DNA from: a bacterium
Lineage (GTDB): Bacteria > JAGOBX01
DNA length: 64,000 nt
Reading direction: 5' to 3'
Assembly (NCBI GenBank): GCA_029551925.1
Contig: JAKPEO010000034.1
Coordinates: forward strand, 30,196-94,195
The notes under the pieces: generated by a model
What the model saw: only the letters and a program-made list of their open reading frames with translations
Told to the model about the DNA's origin: nothing
Databases searched by the model: none
In this document: piece after piece, positions 1,691 through 35,905 of the stretch
How the letters are laid out: each line of letters starts with the position of its first letter
Numbering within the stretch: position 1 is the first letter of the stretch
Position numbers and translations under genes: made by a program

Positions 1691-4600
1691 ATGGCTGCTG
1701 AACGACAATTATTTTTAATATCTGATTTACAAGACACAGATGAATATTTAGAATATTCGATAGGACGCTACAAATATTCATTTTCGTTAAATCAAGTATT
1801 TGAAGTTATTGAAAAAAAATATTATGAAGTAGTGCCCGGTCAATTACTTTATGCTCTAATTCCTACTAATCCCGAAAATTCCAAAATCAATGCAAAAAAA
1901 AAAATAATGCCCGGCAAAAATACTGCCATCACCAAAGACGGAACGCGTATTTATTCAGCATTTTCAGGTATATTGCAATGGCGAAATAATTTTATAAATG
2001 TTTTGCCATTAATAGAAATAAACAGTGATTTATCCGTAGAATATGGAACAGGTAATATTATATTTGATGGAAGCATTATAGTATTAGGCGCTATTGATAA
2101 TGGCGCTATTGTAGATGTTACAGGCGACATTTACGCTTTAAAAATATTCGACGCTGAAATAAAATGCGGCGGCAATATTTATGTTCGCGATGGAATTTTT
2201 GATATACACAATGGCCATATAAAATGCTCGGGAAATATTAAAACTAATAAAATCATTGATTCTAATAATATTGAAGCAAACGGCTTGATAATAGTTGAAG
2301 ACACAATCAGAAACAGCAAAATCAAGACAGAATCTTCCGTAATAGTGACAGGTCCGGGCGATAGAACAATTATTCGTTCAGAGATTTTTGCACGTGAAAT
2401 GGTTATGGCTAATATTATTGGCAGCAAACGCGAGACAATATACACATTAGAAACCGGCTTTGACGAAAGCAAATTCAAAGAATTTTTGGAAGATATATAT
2501 TCCTACGAACAATTATTAAAAGAAATCGACGATATAAAAAATTTACAAAAAACAATAACAGACGAAAAACGCATTGAAGAATATAATAAAAGCATAAACG
2601 CATTAGAAACACGCGCAAATTCAATAAAATCTAAAATTGATGAAATTTATAATAAAATAAATTTCAAAGGAATTAATGAATATTTTGAAAAATACGCGAC
2701 TAACACAGAAGAAATCGAATTGCGCGACGAATTAAAATTTATAGTTAAAAGAATAAACGAAAAAATTAAATTAATAGAATTAGACATCAAAAATCTACTT
2801 GAAGAAAAAGAAAAAATCGAAAGCGGTATGCTGGACGATAAAATGCTCGAGCGATTAGAACAAATCGAAAGCAGCGTCAATTCAATGCAGGCAAAAATCA
2901 AATATTTTAAAGAGCTTCTGAATCTCGCTTATTTGCCAAAAGACAAGACAAAAGTTGTTCAGCATTTTGAAGAATGTTTTATAAATATTGGTTTAACAGT
3001 TGAAGAACGCGAAGATTACGACAAATTAATAGACCAAAAAAAATTCTGTCTTCGCAATATTTCAAATTTAAAAACAGAAAATGAAAAATTACAACAGCAA
3101 GCGGAAAACGATAATAGAGCAGCAAATCAATTAAAAAGAAATTTAGAGACAATTAAACAAATAGAAAGCACTTTATCTGAATTAGCAGTCAAACTTGAAC
3201 CATACGAGACATTTATAAAAAATAGAAAATTTTGTAAATTATCTATTGAAGATGAAATAATCGAAGGGACGATAATCAAATTAGACGGTAAAAAAGTGGA
3301 ATTAAATAAAAGACCTGAAAGATTATCTTTTGTTAGCAATATAGAAAACATAACAATCGAAGGCTTCATAAAAATAGAAATTTCAGAGTTATTTCCTGAA
3401 TATCACAATTCAAACGAGATATCTAATGTTAAATTCGAAGATTTGAAATTGCGCAGAAATATATTAATCGAAGGGATAGACAACCAAAATATTTATCAAT
3501 ATTCGACTAAATTACTAAATATCCCGCCAACACTTGCGTTATTCATCGATTTAGAAAGATATATGCAGCAAACAAAAAAAATCATTAGATTAAATACTAT
3601 ACTATTGGCGAAAAACGAAGATAAAAATCAAGTGCGGCAGTCATTCTTCAAAATTAAAAATAGTTATCCGATACAAGTCGTAGGCGCGACAGTAAAAGAA
3701 TGTTTAGAAAAAGCCGCTGATCATTTTAAATGTTCAACGGAAGATTTAGACTATGAAATTCTGCAATATCCATCTAAAAGTTTTATTTCATTAAAGAAAC
3801 AAAGTTATGTATTAAAAGTCTCGCGCAAAGGCAAAGAAAAAAAAGATATAGACGGATTTTTTGTTATTTTAAATACTATCAATGGCTTGATTTTCACTGT
3901 ATTTCCGCCACGCGGGCTCGGTAAAAAAGCAAAATATGAAGATGTAATCCAACAATTAAAAGAATTCGGTTATGAAAAAGATATAGATTTTAATATGATC
4001 CAGCGCGAAATAGAAACAATGTCTGCTGAAGAACGAAAAATAGCGCCGCGCCAGCCGGAACCTGAATTAGACGGAAAATTTTTTATTAATATTTCATCAG
4101 ATAAAATGCAAGCGATTTTGACTGTGCTGCCGCCGCAATTTGGCGGACTGCCAGTTGCTATTGAAGACATCGCTACTAAAATCAAAGAACTAAATTTAAC
4201 AAATGTCAATTTTGATATAATACAAAAAGCATTAAAAAATCAGAAAAAAAAAGTAGAATTAATAATCTGTCAAGGTGTAGAGCCGACTGCCGGCGTTGAT
4301 GCACAATTAATGCTGCCATTTTTAAGCGAAGACAAATCAGAAGAAGAAAAAAAAATCGAAGAGATATTTGGAATTGTCCCGCTCGGCAATGTCAAAAAAT
4401 CAGATTTAATCGCTAAAAAAATTCCGCCGCAAGACGGCAAACCGGGCCGCAATATTTTCGGTGAAGAAATACCAGCGCCAAAAGGTAAAAATTTCAAATT
4501 GCGCGTTGGCCACAATGCAAACTTAAGCGATGATGAAAATAAGATTTTTGCTTTAATCAGCGGAATGGCATTTAGAGAAGGCTATAAATTTTATGTTGAA

Positions 4601-5494
4601 GAAGCGCTGCGCATCCCCGGCGATGTAGATAATCATACAGGAGATATCGATTTCCCGGGCACAGTTATAATTTCCGGCGCAATCAAAGACGGCTTTAAAG
4701 TTAAGGCAGGCGGCGATATCTATGTTTCAAATATAGAAAGCGCAGAGGTAGAATGCGGTAGAAATTTGTATATCAGACGCGGCGTAGCTGGAAATTATAA
4801 GTGCCGAATAACTGTTCAAGGCAATATAATAACAAATTTTATTGAACAAGCCACTATATTTTGCAAACGCAATGTCATCGTAGCAAATGCAATAATGCAC
4901 AGCGTGATAAATGCGTCGGAAAATATTTTAGTATTAACTGGGGGCAATGGTCTAATAGTCGGTGGCATCATCCGCGCAGGAAAATCAGTATTTGCTAAAA
5001 TTATTGGTTCGCGTACCGCGACAGTTACAACAATCGAAGCCGGCTCTGACCCTGAAAATTTTGAAAAATTAAAAAAATTAGATAATTTTCTTGTGCAATT
5101 AGATAAATTTTATAAAAGCAATAGATTAAATATCAAAAAATTATTGATACTTCAAAAGACCGGCAAATTTACTGAAAAACATCAAGAAATGCTCGAAAAA
5201 TTAAAATATCAAGATCGTGAAATGATTGACCGCATAAAAAAAATATTGCCTGAACGCAATAAATTATTAGAAATTATCGAAGCAGGCAAAGACGGCAAAA
5301 TCTGCGTAAAAGAACGCTGTTATACCGGCGTGCGCATCACTATCTCGCGCGCTAAAATAAAAGTTGATAAAGTTACTGATTTTGTCACTTTCTTTTATTT
5401 AGATATGCAAGTGCGCATAAAACCTTATGAACCGCCGGTCGAAGCGTTATTGGCTGAATTAAAAAAAGAAAATATACAATTGCGGACTATATAA
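1691..5494 (+). CDS. giant FapA/DUF342 protein with two polymer-binding beta-helices, coiled coil and Jag_N-like domain
   Basis: A 1267-residue protein with an unusual duplicated layout. Residues about 80-255 form a first FapA-type right-handed beta-helix, with repeating GNIxxxG/GDIYxxx units ending in an ANIIGSKRET segment. Residues about 260-500 are charged heptad sequence predicted to be coiled coil. Residues about 658-715 resemble the Jag_N domain (VGATVKECLEKAADHF, then LDYEILQYPSKSF). Residues about 860-1125 form a second, better conserved FapA domain (PQDGKPGRNIFG, GDVDNHTGDIDFPG, then repeats ending in AKIIGSRTATV). A short coiled coil follows. FapA proteins are known from flagellar or polysaccharide-related polymerisation contexts (Vibrio FapA). 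No flagellar gene lies in this window, so the role is open. It follows a terminator and is followed 7 nt later by the nucleosidase-like gene. Confidence 0.85.
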   Translation: MAAERQLFLISDLQDTDEYLEYSIGRYKYSFSLNQVFEVIEKKYYEVVPGQLLYALIPTNPENSKINAKKKIMPGKNTAITKDGTRIYSAFSGILQWRNNFINVLPLIEINSDLSVEYGTGNIIFDGSIIVLGAIDNGAIVDVTGDIYALKIFDAEIKCGGNIYVRDGIFDIHNGHIKCSGNIKTNKIIDSNNIEANGLIIVEDTIRNSKIKTESSVIVTGPGDRTIIRSEIFAREMVMANIIGSKRETIYTLETGFDESKFKEFLEDIYSYEQLLKEIDDIKNLQKTITDEKRIEEYNKSINALETRANSIKSKIDEIYNKINFKGINEYFEKYATNTEEIELRDELKFIVKRINEKIKLIELDIKNLLEEKEKIESGMLDDKMLERLEQIESSVNSMQAKIKYFKELLNLAYLPKDKTKVVQHFEECFINIGLTVEEREDYDKLIDQKKFCLRNISNLKTENEKLQQQAENDNRAANQLKRNLETIKQIESTLSELAVKLEPYETFIKNRKFCKLSIEDEIIEGTIIKLDGKKVELNKRPERLSFVSNIENITIEGFIKIEISELFPEYHNSNEISNVKFEDLKLRRNILIEGIDNQNIYQYSTKLLNIPPTLALFIDLERYMQQTKKIIRLNTILLAKNEDKNQVRQSFFKIKNSYPIQVVGATVKECLEKAADHFKCSTEDLDYEILQYPSKSFISLKKQSYVLKVSRKGKEKKDIDGFFVILNTINGLIFTVFPPRGLGKKAKYEDVIQQLKEFGYEKDIDFNMIQREIETMSAEERKIAPRQPEPELDGKFFINISSDKMQAILTVLPPQFGGLPVAIEDIATKIKELNLTNVNFDIIQKALKNQKKKVELIICQGVEPTAGVDAQLMLPFLSEDKSEEEKKIEEIFGIVPLGNVKKSDLIAKKIPPQDGKPGRNIFGEEIPAPKGKNFKLRVGHNANLSDDENKIFALISGMAFREGYKFYVEEALRIPGDVDNHTGDIDFPGTVIISGAIKDGFKVKAGGDIYVSNIESAEVECGRNLYIRRGVAGNYKCRITVQGNIITNFIEQATIFCKRNVIVANAIMHSVINASENILVLTGGNGLIVGGIIRAGKSVFAKIIGSRTATVTTIEAGSDPENFEKLKKLDNFLVQLDKFYKSNRLNIKKLLILQKTGKFTEKHQEMLEKLKYQDREMIDRIKKILPERNKLLEIIEAGKDGKICVKERCYTGVRITISRAKIKVDKVTDFVTFFYLDMQVRIKPYEPPVEALLAELKKENIQLRTI

Positions 5495-28897: not shown

Positions 28898-30295
28898 ATG
28901 AAAATTGAAAATTTAGATAGCGAAAAGAAATTTGCGCGGAGCGACCGCGTAGCGGAATTATTAAAACGCGCAATTTCTGAAATTATTCAAAATAAACTCA
29001 AAGATTCGCGCGTCGGCTTTACGACAGTGAGCGCTGTAAAAGTATCAAATGATTTGCGTATAGCAAATGTTTATGTCAGCGTATTCGGCAAAAATTACGA
29101 AAAAAAACAGACGCTCGAAGCGCTCGAAGATTCCAAGCAATTTATTAGAACGCTTATCGGCAAAAATGTAATTTTAAAATATTTGCCGGATTTGCATTTT
29201 TTTATTGATGATTCGCTTGATTACAGCGAAAAAATGACAAATATTATTTCTGGAATAAAACAGCAGTCATCAGAAAATTTAAAGAAAAAAATCGGTTTGG
29301 AATTGACTGATGACGATATTCAAAAATTGAAAAATATCAATAATCGCTTAATGAACGCTGAAAGAATATTGCTTACTACTCATTTACGCGCAGACGGCGA
29401 CGCGTTTGGATCATTGATGTCTATTTATAATTATTTAGATGGTCTGAATAAAAAAGTAAAAGTGGTTATTGACCACGGCTGCCCGCAGTATTTAGCGTGG
29501 CTGCCTGACAGCGGTTTGATTGAAGACAATAAAAATTTGTTGATTGACAAAAATTTTGATTTGTATGTCTGTATTGATTCTGACTTTGAAAAACGAGTTG
29601 GCTATCCTTATGAAATTTTCAAAGATAAAGTAAACGATAATAATTTAATTGTCATTGACCATCATCCTGAAACAATAGCAAATACTAATTTAAAAATTCT
29701 AAAAACAGAAGCAGCTGCGGCTGCTGAAATAATCTATTATTTTTTTAAAGTTAATGATATTCCGCTAAATGATAAAATTGCGCTGTATCTTTATGTGGGA
29801 TTATTGACAGATACTTGGATGTTTAGTCAGGAAAATACTACTTCTACTACTTTATATATTGCTTCTGAATTATTAAAATTTGAGACAGTTCAGCCCTATC
29901 AATTGACTATGCGGCTATTTGAAAATAAAACATTAGGTCAGACGAAATTATTAGGAAAACTAATAGAAACAATTGAAGTTGATGAAAAATATAAAATAGG
30001 CATAGGGCATATCTCATTAGAAATGTTTAAAGAAACAAACACAACCGAAGAGGACACCGAGGGTTTTGTAAATATTATTAGAGCGTTGAAAGGAGTAAAT
30101 ATCGCTGTTTTATTAAAACAGCAAAAAGATGGAAAATTCAAAGTAAATTTGCGCAGTAAAGATAAATTTAATTTGCTGCCATTTGTAAAAAAAATGGGCG
30201 GCGGCGGACATATCAAAGCAGCAGGTTTTACTTCGGAATTACCATTAATTGAAACCAAAAAAATTATTTTAGAAGAATTGAGGAAAATGTTGTGA
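28898..30295 (+). CDS. fusion of ribosome-binding factor A and NrnA-type DHH phosphoesterase
   Basis: A 465-residue single reading frame. Residues 14-120 are RbfA (RSDRVAELLKRAISEII, the KH-like ...VKVSNDLRIANVYVSV, ending SEKMTNIISG), a 30S maturation factor. Residues 150-460 are a DHH/DHHA1 phosphoesterase like NrnA: H162 with RADGD (D166, D168), D227, DHH 254-256 and GGGGH at 434-438, which degrades nano-RNA and 3'-phosphoadenosine 5'-phosphate. The two are normally adjacent genes before truB. Upstream, AAGGA is ideally placed for ATG 28890, which encodes only Met-Lys-Lys before a TGA overlapping this start (ATGA), suggesting coupling through a three-codon leader. It overlaps truB by 4 nt. 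Confidence 0.9.
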   Translation: MKIENLDSEKKFARSDRVAELLKRAISEIIQNKLKDSRVGFTTVSAVKVSNDLRIANVYVSVFGKNYEKKQTLEALEDSKQFIRTLIGKNVILKYLPDLHFFIDDSLDYSEKMTNIISGIKQQSSENLKKKIGLELTDDDIQKLKNINNRLMNAERILLTTHLRADGDAFGSLMSIYNYLDGLNKKVKVVIDHGCPQYLAWLPDSGLIEDNKNLLIDKNFDLYVCIDSDFEKRVGYPYEIFKDKVNDNNLIVIDHHPETIANTNLKILKTEAAAAAEIIYYFFKVNDIPLNDKIALYLYVGLLTDTWMFSQENTTSTTLYIASELLKFETVQPYQLTMRLFENKTLGQTKLLGKLIETIEVDEKYKIGIGHISLEMFKETNTTEEDTEGFVNIIRALKGVNIAVLLKQQKDGKFKVNLRSKDKFNLLPFVKKMGGGGHIKAAGFTSELPLIETKKIILEELRKML

Positions 30296-31197
30296 TAAAA
30301 TTAGACGGAGCATTTATAGTAGATAAACCAGAGAAATATACATCATTTGATATTGTTAATATTTTAAAAAAAAAATTTAAGTTAAAAAAAGCTGGGCATA
30401 CTGGCACACTCGACGGATTAGCAACAGGCGTGTTGATTGTTTGTGTGAATAATGCCACCAAACTTGTAGATTATTTGATAAACGATGATAAAGATTATTC
30501 TGTTGTTTTAAGATTGGGCTATAAATCTGATACATTTGACAGAGACGGCAAAGTAGAAAAAGCGCTGCTGCCTCCTCAGATTACTGATTTAGAAATAAGA
30601 AAAACCGTGCTCTCTTTTATAGGCGAACAAGACCAAATTCCGCCTATGTATTCAGCGAAAAAAAAAGACGGTAAAAAACTTTATAAATTAGCGCGGCAAG
30701 GCATAGAAGTAACGCGCGAACCGCAACGCATAAAAATTGATTTTTTGAAAATTAACAAAATTGTTAGAGCGCAGGATAATGATTACATTGACATTCATTT
30801 TGATGCTACTGTCAGCAAAGGAACATATATACGGACACTATGCGCTGATATTGCTAAAAAATTAGGGACAAGCGGTATAATGCAGGATTTAAGACGCACG
30901 CGCGTCGGAAAATTTACAATTGATAATGCTAAACCGCTTAAAGAAATTACAGAAAACGATTTACTCGATATTTCGCAAATATCAAATTTGCCTATTTTAG
31001 ACATACCATTACAATCAGTTCAAAAATTTATGAACGGCGGCTATTTAACTGATTTTGAATTGAACGACTGCGAATTTCAGAAATATATAAATTCAACTGT
31101 GTTAGTTCGCAGTAAAGGCGATATTGTTATAGGTATAGCAAATGTCACAGAGATAAAATACAGACGAATTCAGCCGGTAAAAGTTTTTACATTTTAA
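30292..31197 (+). CDS. truB: tRNA pseudouridine-55 synthase TruB
   Basis: A 301-residue protein of normal length. It has GAFIVDKPEKYTSFD, the catalytic motif GHTGTLDGLATG with Asp41, YSAKKKDGKKLYKLAR and GTYIRTLCADIA, followed by a short C-terminal domain. It isomerises U55 in the T-loop of tRNAs. The GTG start overlaps the TGA of the RbfA-NrnA gene (GTGA), so translation is coupled. This preserves the common rbfA-nrnA-truB order. It is the last gene of the unit. The 92 nt to the convergent SDR gene show no clear terminator. Confidence 0.95.
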   Translation: MIKLDGAFIVDKPEKYTSFDIVNILKKKFKLKKAGHTGTLDGLATGVLIVCVNNATKLVDYLINDDKDYSVVLRLGYKSDTFDRDGKVEKALLPPQITDLEIRKTVLSFIGEQDQIPPMYSAKKKDGKKLYKLARQGIEVTREPQRIKIDFLKINKIVRAQDNDYIDIHFDATVSKGTYIRTLCADIAKKLGTSGIMQDLRRTRVGKFTIDNAKPLKEITENDLLDISQISNLPILDIPLQSVQKFMNGGYLTDFELNDCEFQKYINSTVLVRSKGDIVIGIANVTEIKYRRIQPVKVFTF

Positions 31198-31289: not shown

Positions 31290-32282
31290 TCAAAGCATAT
31301 TGTTTTGTTTATACCATTCATAGGTTTCAAATAATGCTATTTTTATATCGGTAAATCTAAATTCTGGAAAATTAGCCAAAAATTTAGAATTTGAACACAG
31401 CCAATATTTTTTCTGTAATTCATTTAATTTTTCTTTATTTAATAATAACGGCTTTTTTAAAATATTACTGATGAAATCTTGTATTATCCCTAATATTCGC
31501 ACAATAAATAACGGCAGCCCTATACATATTGGCTGCTTTTTCATTATTTCAGCAATAAGCAATGCAAATTCTTTAACTGTATAATTTTCGCTATTACATA
31601 CAAAAAATATTTCGCCGCTCTGTATTTTATCTGATTCTGCAATTAAAATTGTTGCTTTAACTAAATCGCGGACATACACAACTGAAAATTTTAAATCGCC
31701 TTTGCTGACATATAAAACAATATTATTTTTTATCATCTTGAAATAAGTATAAATATCTTTTTCAGCTGCGCCAAATACTGCTGGCGGGCGAATAATAACA
31801 TAATTTAATTTATCTTTGACGCTTGCTAAATATTCTTCAGCTAAAAATTTTGATTTGCCATAACTATTCAGCGGCTGACATTGAGCATTTTCATCTAATA
31901 ATTCACCGCTATCAGCGCTCGGCCCGGCAGCAGCTTGACTCGAACAAAATACAAATCTCTTTAATCTCAAATTATTAATTTTCAATAATCGCTCTACTAA
32001 TTTTTTTGTATAACCGCAATTGACTTTATAATATTCGTTTTTATCATAATGTTTCGTCAGTCCAGCAAAATGATAAATATAATCAAACTGTCTAAAATAT
32101 TCATCTGATAATTCATCAATTTTATCAAATTCTGCATTTATTAGTTTAACTTTATCCAGTGGCAATATCCCATTACTTTTTTTAGAGCGGACAATACAAT
32201 ATACTTCACAGCCATTATTAACTAATTGTTTCGCTAAATGACTGCCGATAAATCCAGTAGCGCCGGTAATCAATATCTTCAT
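31290..32282 (-). CDS. extended SDR (NAD-dependent epimerase/dehydratase family), probable ceramide reductase CerR
   Basis: A 330-residue extended SDR. The nucleotide-binding GATGFIGSH lies at 7-15, the active-site serine region at 113-122 (CSSQAAAGPS), and the catalytic YGKSK at 141-145; a substrate domain rich in hydrophobic residues follows. The SSxAAAGPS context matches SDRs of the 3-beta-HSD/ceramide-reductase type. In Caulobacter, CerR, annotated as an NAD-epimerase, reduces 3-oxo-ceramide in the bacterial ceramide pathway. It is the last gene of a tight operon (2-nt gap) behind the GNAT and serine palmitoyltransferase genes, which is the main reason for the call. An SDR-type threonine dehydrogenase is the main alternative. 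Confidence 0.7.
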   Translation of the reverse strand: MKILITGATGFIGSHLAKQLVNNGCEVYCIVRSKKSNGILPLDKVKLINAEFDKIDELSDEYFRQFDYIYHFAGLTKHYDKNEYYKVNCGYTKKLVERLLKINNLRLKRFVFCSSQAAAGPSADSGELLDENAQCQPLNSYGKSKFLAEEYLASVKDKLNYVIIRPPAVFGAAEKDIYTYFKMIKNNIVLYVSKGDLKFSVVYVRDLVKATILIAESDKIQSGEIFFVCNSENYTVKEFALLIAEIMKKQPICIGLPLFIVRILGIIQDFISNILKKPLLLNKEKLNELQKKYWLCSNSKFLANFPEFRFTDIKIALFETYEWYKQNNML

Positions 32283-32284
32283 TT

Positions 32285-33409
32285 TTATTCTATTTTATTC
32301 TCAAAAATTCTGTAGGTCTTATAATGCTTTAAACCAAAATTTATTAATATTTTATTCATTACAAGATTATCTTCTAATATCCACGATAATTCTGTGCCTG
32401 CGTTAAATCTTTCGCCATTATATTTTATTGCTTGCTGAATTAAATAAATATCAATTGCTCGCCGACGAAATTTATGCGATATTCCTAATGTAATAACTCT
32501 ACCGCGATTAATTTTTTTAAAATTCAATAATATTTTCAGCCAGCCGAACGGCAATAATCTGCCATTAATTTTTTTCAATATAAAATTAAAATCCGGCAGC
32601 GCAATCAAAAAACCAGCCGGTTGATCCTCAGTATACGCTAATAACACGCACTCTTCTGGCACAAATGTTTTTAATTCTTTGCCCATATTATAAAATTCGC
32701 GGTAAGTCATCGGCACAAATCCCCAGTTTTTTTCCCAAGCGTCATTATATATTTCATTTAATATTTTAATTTCATCTTCAAATTTTCGAAAATTAATTTT
32801 TCTACAAGTTAATTTATAGCGGTTGATGAATTTTGAAATATCTACAGCCATTATTTTTTTATATGTCTCATAATCTAAATAATATGCCCATAAATCCTTG
32901 ACTTTATAATGCCCTAATTCTATTAATAACTTTTCATAATATTCAAAATTATACGGCATCATTATCAGCGGTGCGCTGTCAAATGAATCAACTAATAATC
33001 CAGATATTTCATTTGTCGAAAATGTAAATGGTCCGCGCACAATTTTTATATCATTTTTTTTGAAAAATTCATAAACTGCACTAAATAATTTTTCTGCTGC
33101 TGTTTTATCGTTTATAATTTCAAAACTACCCCAAAAACCAATTTGTTCATTATGAAAAGAATTATAATTTTCATTAATATTAGCGGATATTCTACCAACT
33201 ACCTGATTATCTTTCAAACATAAAAATAATTTTACTTTTGAATGTTCGAAAAACGCATTCTTTTTAGAATTGTAAAATTCGATTTCCTGTAATTTTAATG
33301 GCGGAACCCAATATTTGTTTTTTTTATATAATTTATAAGGAAAATCAATAAATTCTTTTAATTGTTGTTTGGTGATAACTTCAATTACTTGATAATCGGC
33401 AAAACTCAT
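32285..33409 (-). CDS. GNAT-fold acyltransferase, probable bacterial ceramide synthase (bCerS)
   Basis: A 374-residue soluble protein with features of a large GNAT-like family: KYWVPPL (32-38), FFEHSKVKLFLC, VGRISA (71-76), GFWGSFE (91-97), RGPFTFSTNEISGLLVD (125-141) and MPYNFEYYEKL (151-161), plus a C-terminal acyltransferase-like half. Proteins of this family were shown in Caulobacter to N-acylate the long-chain base; the founding member was annotated as an N-acetyltransferase. The start ATG overlaps the stop of the serine palmitoyltransferase gene (ATGA), and the SDR gene follows after 2 nt. Function is inferred from family plus operon; the acyl donor is unknown. Confidence 0.7.
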   Translation of the reverse strand: MSFADYQVIEVITKQQLKEFIDFPYKLYKKNKYWVPPLKLQEIEFYNSKKNAFFEHSKVKLFLCLKDNQVVGRISANINENYNSFHNEQIGFWGSFEIINDKTAAEKLFSAVYEFFKKNDIKIVRGPFTFSTNEISGLLVDSFDSAPLIMMPYNFEYYEKLLIELGHYKVKDLWAYYLDYETYKKIMAVDISKFINRYKLTCRKINFRKFEDEIKILNEIYNDAWEKNWGFVPMTYREFYNMGKELKTFVPEECVLLAYTEDQPAGFLIALPDFNFILKKINGRLLPFGWLKILLNFKKINRGRVITLGISHKFRRRAIDIYLIQQAIKYNGERFNAGTELSWILEDNLVMNKILINFGLKHYKTYRIFENKIE

Positions 33410-34587
33410 ATAATATTATTTTGCTTTGCTACTATTTTCATTTTTTCCAAAGTATAATCGATTTCAGCGAAGGTATGCGAAGCCATCAAACTCAATCTAA
33501 TCAACGCATTTCCCGGCGACACAGCTGGCGCAACAGCAGGATTAACAAATATCCCATGCTCTTGCAATTCTTTACACACTTTAAACGCCAGCATATCATC
33601 GCCAATAAGGACAGGCAATATCGGCGTCTCGCCAGCGCTGGTCTTAAGGCCGGCGTCAACTAATCCTTTATGCATATATTTTGTATTTTCCCAAAGTTTA
33701 ACAATTCGTTCTGGTTCTTTTTGCATAATTTCAAGAGCGGCCGCTGCTGCTGCTACTGACGCTGGCGGCATACTCGCGCTAAAAATAAACGACCGAGAAT
33801 TATGTTTTATATAATGTATAACTTCTTCTTCTCCTGCTATAAATCCGCCGATTGACGCTAATGATTTACTAAATGTGCCCATTATCAAATCTACATCTGA
33901 TGTCAAGTTAAAATGGTTGACTATCCCTGCGCCATTTTTTCCGAATACTCCGATACTGTGCGCCTCGTCCACCATTAAAACTGCGTTATATTTTTTCTTT
34001 AATTCAACCAGTCCTTTAAGATCAGCGTAATCGCCGTCCATACTAAACACGCCGTCGCAAGCAATCATTAATCCATTTTTTATTTCATACTTTTGCAATG
34101 TCTTTTCCGCGTCTTCTATATTATTATGCTCGTATCTTAATAATTTGCAGTGGCTCATCTGCGCGCCTGCTATCAAACTCGCATGATTTAATTTATCCAT
34201 CAAACAATAATCTTTTGGTCCGACTAAACACGATATTACGCCAACATTTGTTTGATATCCGGTAGGAAATAACAATGCCGCTTCTTTTCCGACAAATGCC
34301 GCTAATTTTTCTTCTAATTCTACATGTATATCTAATGTGCCGTTTAAAAATCGCGAGCCGGCGCAGCCAGTGCCGTATTTTCTTATCGCTTCAGCAACCG
34401 CTTCCTTTACTTTTGGATGATTGGTCAGCGCTAAATAACTATTCGATCCAAACATTATAACTTTTTTGCCATTAATAATAACAGAAGTGTCTATATCTGA
34501 GCTAATTTCACGAAAATACGGATATATTCCCATTTTCTGAACTTCACGCGCTATCGTAAACCGCTTACATTTATCTAATAGTCCCAT
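33406..34587 (-). CDS. spt: serine palmitoyltransferase-type alpha-oxoamine synthase
   Basis: A 393-residue PLP enzyme of fold type I. It has GSNSYLALTNHP (47-58), GTGCAGSRFLNGT (72-84), His135 stacking on PLP, DEAHSIG (207-213) and the Schiff-base lysine K241 in GTFSKSL. The GTFSKS context is that of serine palmitoyltransferases. Glycine C-acetyltransferase (Kbl) and BioF have TLGKA at this point, which argues against the usual automatic annotation. It should condense serine (or a related amino acid) with a long-chain acyl thioester to 3-ketosphinganine. First gene of the three-gene minus-strand operon, with a promoter at 34667-34639. Confidence 0.82.
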   Translation of the reverse strand: MGLLDKCKRFTIAREVQKMGIYPYFREISSDIDTSVIINGKKVIMFGSNSYLALTNHPKVKEAVAEAIRKYGTGCAGSRFLNGTLDIHVELEEKLAAFVGKEAALLFPTGYQTNVGVISCLVGPKDYCLMDKLNHASLIAGAQMSHCKLLRYEHNNIEDAEKTLQKYEIKNGLMIACDGVFSMDGDYADLKGLVELKKKYNAVLMVDEAHSIGVFGKNGAGIVNHFNLTSDVDLIMGTFSKSLASIGGFIAGEEEVIHYIKHNSRSFIFSASMPPASVAAAAAALEIMQKEPERIVKLWENTKYMHKGLVDAGLKTSAGETPILPVLIGDDMLAFKVCKELQEHGIFVNPAVAPAVSPGNALIRLSLMASHTFAEIDYTLEKMKIVAKQNNII

Positions 34588-34813: not shown

Positions 34814-35905
34814 ATGCTTGACAAACAATTATTAAATAAATATGCGCAATTACTTGTTGACTATTGCGTGAATGTCAAAAAAAACGAACAAATTGCGATA
34901 CAGGGCGGAATAGCGGCAGCTCCGCTAATCGAAAAAATTTATATTGAAGTATTAAAACGCGGCGCTTTTCCGTTTAATAGAATCACGCTCAATAACCAAT
35001 CAGAATTATTTTTTAAATATGCGCAAGATCAGCATTTGACTATGCTGCCGAAACTGCCGCTGCTCGAAGCAAAAGAATTCGACGCCACAATAATTTTATA
35101 TTCTGAAACGAATACTAAATCATTATCAAATATTGAGCCGACAAAACAATCGCAATTCAGAAAAACATATAAACCTGTAAGCGATATAAGATTAAAAAAA
35201 GATAGATGGGTATTGGCGCTTTATCCGACGGAAGCATATTCGCAGGATGCTGAGATGTCATTATCAGAATTTGAAGATTTTGTCGTAAATGCTGTAAAAA
35301 TCAATAAACCTAATCCGATAAAAGAATGGCAAGCACTCGAAAGATATCAGCAAAAAATTGTTGATAAATTAAAAAACGCGGATATTGTAAGAATAGTAGG
35401 TAAAGAAACCGACTTAACATTAAGTGTCAAAAATAGAAAATTTATTAATAGCTGCGGAAAAAGCAATATGCCGAGCGGCGAAGTATTTACAGGTCCGCTC
35501 GAAAATTCTGCAAACGGCAAAATATATTTTGAATTTCCAGTATGCACGAGCGGCAATGAAATCAGCGGAATCAGATTAGAATTTAAAGACGGCAAAGTTA
35601 TAAAAGCATCAGCTGAAAAAAACGAAAATTATCTATTAAAAATATTAGAAACCGATAAAGGCGCACGGTATTTAGGCGAATTTGCAATAGGTTTAAATTA
35701 TTCTATCCAAAAATTCACAAAAAATATTTTATTTGACGAAAAAATTGGCGGAACAATCCATTTAGCAATTGGCAGTTCTTATGAAGAAACCGGCGGCAAA
35801 AACAAATCCGCTATACATTGGGATATGATAAAAGATTTGCGGACAGAAGGCGAATTATATATAGACGATAAATTATTTATGAAAAAAGGCAAAATTCTAT
35901 TATGA
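34814..35905 (+). CDS. M29-family metallo-aminopeptidase
   Basis: A 363-residue cytoplasmic protein of the thermophilic-aminopeptidase family (AmpS/AmpT, M29). Metal-binding residues are seen in GEVFTGP, LGEFAIGLN, IHLAIGSSY and HWDMI, in the family order. It removes N-terminal residues from peptides using two divalent metals. It has its own promoter and overlaps the NtrC-type regulator by 4 nt (ATGA). No link with the regulator function is obvious. Confidence 0.85.
   Translation: MLDKQLLNKYAQLLVDYCVNVKKNEQIAIQGGIAAAPLIEKIYIEVLKRGAFPFNRITLNNQSELFFKYAQDQHLTMLPKLPLLEAKEFDATIILYSETNTKSLSNIEPTKQSQFRKTYKPVSDIRLKKDRWVLALYPTEAYSQDAEMSLSEFEDFVVNAVKINKPNPIKEWQALERYQQKIVDKLKNADIVRIVGKETDLTLSVKNRKFINSCGKSNMPSGEVFTGPLENSANGKIYFEFPVCTSGNEISGIRLEFKDGKVIKASAEKNENYLLKILETDKGARYLGEFAIGLNYSIQKFTKNILFDEKIGGTIHLAIGSSYEETGGKNKSAIHWDMIKDLRTEGELYIDDKLFMKKGKILL

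Follow-up and report, generated by a model that had tools for sequence, protein, structure and literature searches.

Bacterial sphingolipids were long thought to be rare. One of the closest described systems is that of Caulobacter crescentus, with Spt (CC_1162), bCerS or CerS (CC_1154) and CerR (CC_1164), and a 2024 study of uncultured Black Sea bacteria describes Spt, bCerS and CerR as the known backbone pathway, "often found clustered", and reports Spt-like proteins in metagenome-assembled genomes (MAGs) of 38 phyla (PMC11334938). Caulobacter is described as also needing AcpR and AasR, with cerS in another transcription unit (PMC11324152), and its CerR has been placed in the periplasm, where free NADH is absent (PMC11087976). 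Here we analyse a stretch of 64,000 nucleotides (the window; positions 30,196 to 94,195 of contig JAKPEO010000034.1, assembly GCA_029551925.1) from a bacterium of the GTDB lineage JAGOBX01. According to its open reading frame (ORF) listing, the minus strand of the window encodes the same three enzyme types side by side: a serine palmitoyltransferase (SPT)-type alpha-oxoamine synthase of 393 residues (gene 1, 33406–34587), a predicted bCerS-like N-acyltransferase of 374 residues, predicted to be a tandem GNAT (gene 2, 32285–33409), and a CerR-like extended short-chain dehydrogenase/reductase (SDR) of 330 residues (gene 3, 31290–32282). An earlier note on this DNA had interpreted these genes as a ceramide operon, a view supported by homology and active-site residues as well as by tree position and genomic association. 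We consider it probable that the unit builds a ceramide backbone, the individual activities being predicted, and ceramide-lipid synthesis for the membrane is likely in this bacterium. The gene set itself is already known: more than ten bacterial phyla have these genes together, so what the window offers is a new host for an established pathway. In the predicted sequence of steps, the SPT-type enzyme would condense serine with an acyl thioester, the presumed acyl donor, the tandem-GNAT protein would put a second fatty acyl chain on the amine, and dihydroceramide would result from NAD(P)H-dependent reduction of the 3-keto group by the extended SDR. This order is presumptive, as the second and third steps could occur in either order.

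By sequence, gene 1 is an SPT-type enzyme, for which activity on serine is predicted. Its product is assigned to the aminotransferase I/II family by Pfam, and the nearest solved structure is the SPT of Sphingobacterium multivorum (PDB 3a2b, E 1.8e-138), an enzyme which we compared on its own and which shares with gene 1 the catalytic residues and 54% identity over 386 residues aligned without a gap. The active-site residues of gene 1 are Asn49, His135, Asp207, His210, Lys241 and Arg364, plus Ala271, and 3a2b is identical at all seven positions. The resulting signature (Asn/His/Asp/His/Lys/Ala/Arg) is common to 68 of 82 aligned rows, with the window and its two copies (L001 and L002) counted in. 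The lysine for pyridoxal 5'-phosphate (PLP), Lys241, lies in the motif GTFSKS (codon 33865–33867, minus strand) and is a lysine in all 82 rows. These residues do not tell serine from alanine use, and the three steps could yield 1-deoxyceramides if the PLP enzyme took alanine or glycine instead of serine; 1-deoxysphingolipids are described from anoxic Black Sea water (PMC11334938). The closest characterised relative, matching at every position compared, is however a serine enzyme, and we consider a 1-deoxyceramide product unlikely.

Ala271 (codon 33775–33777, minus strand) bears on a different product. The earlier note had kept open sulfonolipids made from cysteate, which in such a capnine pathway the unit would condense, N-acylate and reduce. 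The sulfonolipid and ceramide pathways have enzyme types in common (PMC9304779, PMC11211663), and the cysteate acyltransferase SulA/CFAT (PDB 7u7h, 28eh) belongs to the same superfamily as gene 1. According to PMC9304779, Lys281 of SulA is the one active-site difference from Spt. At the corresponding position gene 1 has Ala271, as in SPT, an equivalence placed by counting 30 residues on from the PLP lysine in an alignment that does not contain SulA. A Persicobacter enzyme (L117), taken as a route to the SulA sequence, gave no match at 1e-80. Cysteate acyltransferase structures also score far below SPT (E 4.8e-71 for 28eh). The alanine thus disfavours cysteate as substrate, and we give the sulfonolipid alternative only a very small chance.

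The SPT assignment agrees with family models and phylogeny. The top NCBIfam model for gene 1 is NF047600 (SPT of the CFB group/Bacteroidota type), with 578.9 bits, and further models follow at 406.2 and 405.4 bits and lower, Kbl and BioF types included. Gene 1 stays under the cut-offs of the latter (314.7 vs. 493 bits for TIGR01822 and 405.4 vs. 426.45 bits for TIGR00858, BioF). In the same test E. coli Kbl (746.7 bits) and an Alicyclobacillus BioF (479.8 bits) exceed the cut-offs of their own models, and a Parabacteroides enzyme reaches 683.8 bits with NF047600. At the column of Ala271, the named Kbl and BioF rows have Thr or Asn. We made a tree of 75 rows by a quick method that flagged some long branches, after dropping seven of the 82 rows (three duplicates, three fragments and L111). 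Gene 1 falls in a 67-row SPT clade with a Shimodaira–Hasegawa-like approximate likelihood ratio (SH-aLRT) support of 98; both reference SPTs lie inside, and Kbl, BioF and the host's second alpha-oxoamine synthase fall outside. This placement bears out the proposal that the PLP enzyme is of the SPT type and not Kbl or BioF. Gene 1 groups with Bacteroidota rows (support 83), and the enzyme sister to it comes from Acidobacteria (L031, support 88) and itself belongs to a three-gene unit of the same order.

For gene 2, membership of the bCerS family had been proposed, and this is upheld by near full-length homology to an E. coli protein with the annotation YghO (E 7e-67, 34.9% identical across 97% of the length) and, in one comparison, to a Sphingomonas parapaucimobilis protein (32%, E 6e-70). 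YghO is given among the counterparts of Caulobacter CC_1154, a gene required for dihydroceramide (PMC9386255), and it is via this listed counterpart that we liken gene 2 to CC_1154; E. coli BL21 is described in the same paper as carrying a set of its own. The Sphingomonas relative adjoins lptF/lptG with an SPT and an acyl carrier protein nearby, a setting similar to the Caulobacter region as described in PMC11324152. Within the gene 2 protein, WVPPL occupies residues 34–38, GRISA 72–76, GFWGSFE 91–97 and RGPFTFSTNE 125–134 (33008–33037, minus strand), with Gly126 and Pro127 invariant in 27 aligned sequences; like GTFSKS in gene 1 and SSQAAAGPS and YxxxK (YGKSK) in gene 3, all of these motifs had been quoted before and are present. 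An AlphaFold2 model (mean predicted local distance difference test score 94.4, predicted template modelling score 0.90) has its best fold matches among two-domain GNATs, for example glucosamine N-acetyltransferase (template modelling score 0.62 by query length, 15% identity). This comparison of a predicted structure supports a tandem GNAT and does not indicate the substrate. Among solved structures, a single-sequence search with gene 2 gave none at E up to 10, and those from a profile search were only weak (best 0.016), almost all of them concerning the C-terminal GNAT part.

The family of gene 2 is large, with at least 6,240 homologues among 7,998 candidates scored in a single-sequence search. 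The 120 homologues listed are mostly unnamed, "GNAT" or "hypothetical", and the named hosts often belong to uncultured phyla. Phage records contained only distant relatives, on six phage contigs from human faecal samples (22.8–29.8% identity). A further distant relative (27.6% identity over 85%) lies in a Bacteroides finegoldii record (L011, 4983–6119). Its neighbours there are coaD and a DNA topoisomerase IV subunit, and the surrounding 11-kb stretch contains no SPT; it is perhaps a candidate N-acyltransferase of Bacteroides.

Gene 3 matches Pfam Epimerase with 124.6 bits and has the residues of an SDR: the glycines G7, G10 and G13 of the Rossmann loop, within GATGFIGSH (32238–32264, minus strand), and Ser115, Tyr141 and Lys145, of which the catalytic Tyr and Lys form part of YGKSK (31848–31862, minus strand). 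These six residues are common to 47 of 55 aligned rows, a count in which the window and its copies L001 and L002 are again included. At most ten residues can precede the Rossmann glycines, too few to accommodate a signal peptide. None of the matches listed for gene 3 (25 of 27 in NCBIfam) is to a threonine-dehydrogenase model, and no solved structure was found at 1e-12. The top NCBIfam match is HpnA, with 98.3 bits against a cut-off of 367.65. HpnA likewise comes out on top when the cluster SDRs of Rubrobacter, Streptomyces, Klebsiella, Roseomonas and Aureispira are compared, so that the label is generic to the family, and a hopanoid role for gene 3 is unlikely because the draft genome has no match to squalene-hopene cyclase. 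Together with the BioF score of gene 1, some 20 bits short of its cut-off, the HpnA match could be taken to mean that the locus combines a synthase of the Kbl/BioF type with a GNAT unrelated to it and an epimerase of the sugar or hopanoid type. We find this hardly credible: the tree places gene 1 outside Kbl and BioF, its diagnostic column has Ala and not Thr or Asn, true Kbl and BioF enzymes pass their own cut-offs, the cyclase is missing from the draft, and the genome has a separate BioF-like gene (407 bits, itself under the cut-off).

The ceramide interpretation gains further support from gene neighbourhoods. We compared 80 loci encoding the GNAT, the best 80 of at least 582 confirmed relatives of gene 2 in one scan of species genomes, a choice that favours close relatives. 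An SPT-type gene, defined by at least 100 bits to the gene 1 protein, lies within 3 kb in 52 of the 80, and in 32 of these a gene 3-type SDR is also present; two loci have only the SDR and 26 have neither gene nearby. Adjacency counts are lower bounds, as eight of these 26 have less than 3 kb upstream at contig ends. The SPT is directly upstream of the GNAT on the same strand in 46 loci, and all three genes share the order of the window on one strand in 12. An SPT-type gene near the GNAT is seen in 18 named phyla, and SPT together with SDR in 11, plus unnamed phyla in each case. SDRs of the gene 3 family (at least 80 bits) number 34 within 3 kb of the GNAT (421,604 flanking bases) vs. one farther out (509,700 bases), and this sole distant SDR (L029) lies beside an SPT. 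In the 45 same-strand loci that passed the filter for this measurement, distinct from the one behind the count of 46, gaps were measured by taking as start codon the nearest guess to the aligned start: the SPT stop overlaps the GNAT start in 16, by exactly 4 nt as in the window in 10, and the two genes overlap or lie at most 20 nt apart in 27. On a tree of the GNATs, near-copies included, SPT adjacency is clustered (24 changes vs. 37.1 in shuffles) and not confined to one clade.

Where the genes are not adjacent, the SPT is usually encoded elsewhere. Such an SPT-grade protein occurs in the genomes of 24 of the 26 loci with neither gene and of both SDR-only loci (26 of 28), and in total 77 of the 80 loci are in genomes with an SPT-grade gene: 51 loci with a nearby SPT having the diagnostic Ala (two of the 52, L046 and L063, are fragments and were left out of the gene 1 tree) plus 26 genomes in which a match elsewhere scores at least 337 bits. 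This line was drawn by eye at a drop in scores from 344.8 to 312.5 in a set of 60 whole genomes, and a few second matches near 340 bits are ambiguous. The 60 genomes themselves served as an independent control, with 15 having both the GNAT and an SPT-grade gene, seven the GNAT only, two the SPT only and 36 neither (Fisher p 3e-7, or 8e-7 without the window's own genome, both uncorrected for relatedness). The association of the three genes is more than chance.

Several observations weigh against a ceramide unit. The 578.9 bits of gene 1 are below the curated NF047600 cut-off of 640, and the equivalog level is thus not reached. The earlier note had called the operon hidden under generic annotations, which is too strong since the top NCBIfam model is already named serine palmitoyltransferase, although the match falls below its cut-off. 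Gene 3 is only 24% identical to the SDR of the Caulobacter-like Klebsiella cluster (98 bits) and 21% identical to that of Roseomonas (52 bits). The comparison to CerR holds in that an extended SDR does stand beside an SPT and a GNAT, but the kinship to the SDRs of Caulobacter-like clusters is distant; gene 3 and these SDRs appear homologous, though not necessarily orthologous. No such SDR is found within 3 kb in 20 of the 52 loci where an SPT-type gene is close by. Three of the 80 loci (L072, L077 and L081) have no SPT-grade gene by the above measures, and one of them, L077, is among the 52, with Cys at the diagnostic column and a position outside the SPT clade. Of the 22 genomes with the GNAT among the 60 sampled, seven lack an SPT-grade gene. 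Finally, a sister genome of the host phylum (87% complete) has neither a GNAT match nor an SPT-grade gene, its sole alpha-oxoamine synthase match being 36% identical.

The distant SDR homology, the loci without the SDR and the genomes with the GNAT only would also fit a correct SPT step with the GNAT or the SDR acting elsewhere, leaving a free long-chain base, a 3-keto ceramide or another N-acyl lipid. Given the gene overlap and the recurring three-gene order, which argue against it, we see only a slim chance for this explanation. The genomes with the GNAT and no SPT-grade enzyme (G015, G025, G036, G041, G048, G054 and G057) are nevertheless a hint that the GNAT family may have other substrates, and that part of it might acylate something other than sphingoid bases.

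In its layout the unit is compact, and the three ORFs, their order and the spacings given for them were all found in the sequence: genes 1 and 2 share a 4-nt ATGA stop/start overlap (33406–33409, minus strand), and genes 2 and 3 are separated by 2 nt (32283–32284, minus strand). Both flanking ORFs, at 30292–31197 and 34814–35905, have plus-strand orientation, which leaves the three genes as an isolated minus-strand unit. Promoter-like sites (24 vs. a mean of 22.4 in shuffles) and terminator-like sites (2 vs. 2.8) show no excess over shuffled sequence, and "operon" therefore rests on the gene overlaps, from which we infer a single transcript. A search of the window for RNA families returned one tRNA and nothing else. 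We tentatively entertain, as a rather doubtful extension, a co-translated ceramide machine confined to one compartment, in which SPT, N-acyltransferase and a reductase without signal peptide would be made from one transcript and act jointly in the cytoplasm, with the tight overlap observed in several phyla being general in bacteria and the Caulobacter layout the exception. Of the neighbours, we take the ORF at 30292–31197 to be TruB-like; directly before it lies an ORF of 465 residues (28898–30295, plus strand) with a ribosome-binding factor A domain (residues 14–117) and DHH/DHHA1 phosphoesterase domains (156–451). Farther off, an ORF of 1267 residues (1691–5494, plus strand) has FapA N-terminal and beta-solenoid domains in the direction of its C-terminal end, together with Jag-N and another stretch of FapA type. 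By eye, none of the genes beside the unit could be recognised as having a head-group or transport role.

The host draft comprises 2.96 Mb in 131 contigs and is 86.3% complete; its phylum has two genomes in the collection searched, the window's own included. The genome has LpxC and two LptF/LptG-family genes, and the host probably has an outer membrane bearing lipopolysaccharide (LPS). We considered an LPS-free envelope and rejected it on account of LpxC, and a second LptF/LptG pair is excluded by there being just two such genes in the whole genome. The second alpha-oxoamine synthase of the host is encoded on contig C93 (L121, 7726–8874); it is BioF-like, with 407 vs. the required 426.45 bits, and has Thr at the diagnostic column. 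It lies close to genes that we take to be ATP synthase-like, and inspection of its neighbours by eye picked out none for biotin.

The carrier protein and acyl-CoA synthetase known from Caulobacter had been noted as missing, and the window indeed contains no PP-binding (acyl-carrier-protein) or AMP-binding (acyl-CoA synthetase family) gene; in the draft the single PP-binding match is on contig C89 and the five AMP-binding matches are on other contigs. It is in the alpha/beta/gamma-proteobacterial branch that carrier protein and ligase are described as linked to spt (PMC9386255, PMC11324152), and PMC9386255 presents the SPT group of Bacteroidetes and delta-proteobacteria as separate from that using AcpR and AasR. 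As the SPT of the window groups with Bacteroidota and the one PP-binding gene of the genome is unlinked, the absence of these partners from the window is unremarkable.

A literature search produced no report that could be tied to this genome. In Bacteroides thetaiotaomicron, spt and the reductase gene are unclustered, unlike in the window, and the SDR reductase BT_0972 was chosen by similarity to the yeast enzyme (PMC9278070); two Bacteroidota loci in our set (L078 and L088) nevertheless have the same three-gene order as the window. In the Black Sea clusters, bCerS and CerR lie near an Spt-like gene on the scaffold, as in the window, and Cloacimonadota MAGs are described as lacking such clustering (PMC11334938). 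Our four Cloacimonadota loci (L017, L022, L024 and L033) agree with this, having the GNAT with no SPT nearby and an SPT-grade gene elsewhere in each genome. L017 has just 893 bases upstream, and L024 has two GNATs side by side. Similar in layout are the plasmid operons of the Actinomycetota Rubrobacter radiotolerans (L005) and Streptomyces NBC_01001 (L007), which have the gene order and strand of the window with short overlaps or a 13-nt gap, and whose SPTs are 45% and 40% identical to gene 1.

Compared with Caulobacter, the window places cerS between spt and cerR and lacks a carrier or ligase gene, and unlike in the five-gene alpha/beta/gamma-proteobacterial system, where acpR directly precedes spt, no PP-binding gene is found there. 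PMC11324152 states that the operon containing bacterial cerS is always a different one from that of spt and cerR, a rule from which it develops a salvage idea. The overlap of a cerS-type start with an spt-type stop, in the window and in 16 of the 45 measured loci, bears directly on that statement and argues against it as a general rule. Likewise, a reductase with no room for a signal peptide bears on the question of a periplasmic CerR (PMC11087976). The compact layout is informative for the debate on the order and location of the steps, and the three-gene cassette should be handy for testing both. What the window adds to the known systems is a host phylum with two genomes in the collection and a cerS inside an spt–cerR unit; with its complete predicted backbone set, it would represent a further host lineage for bacterial sphingolipids.

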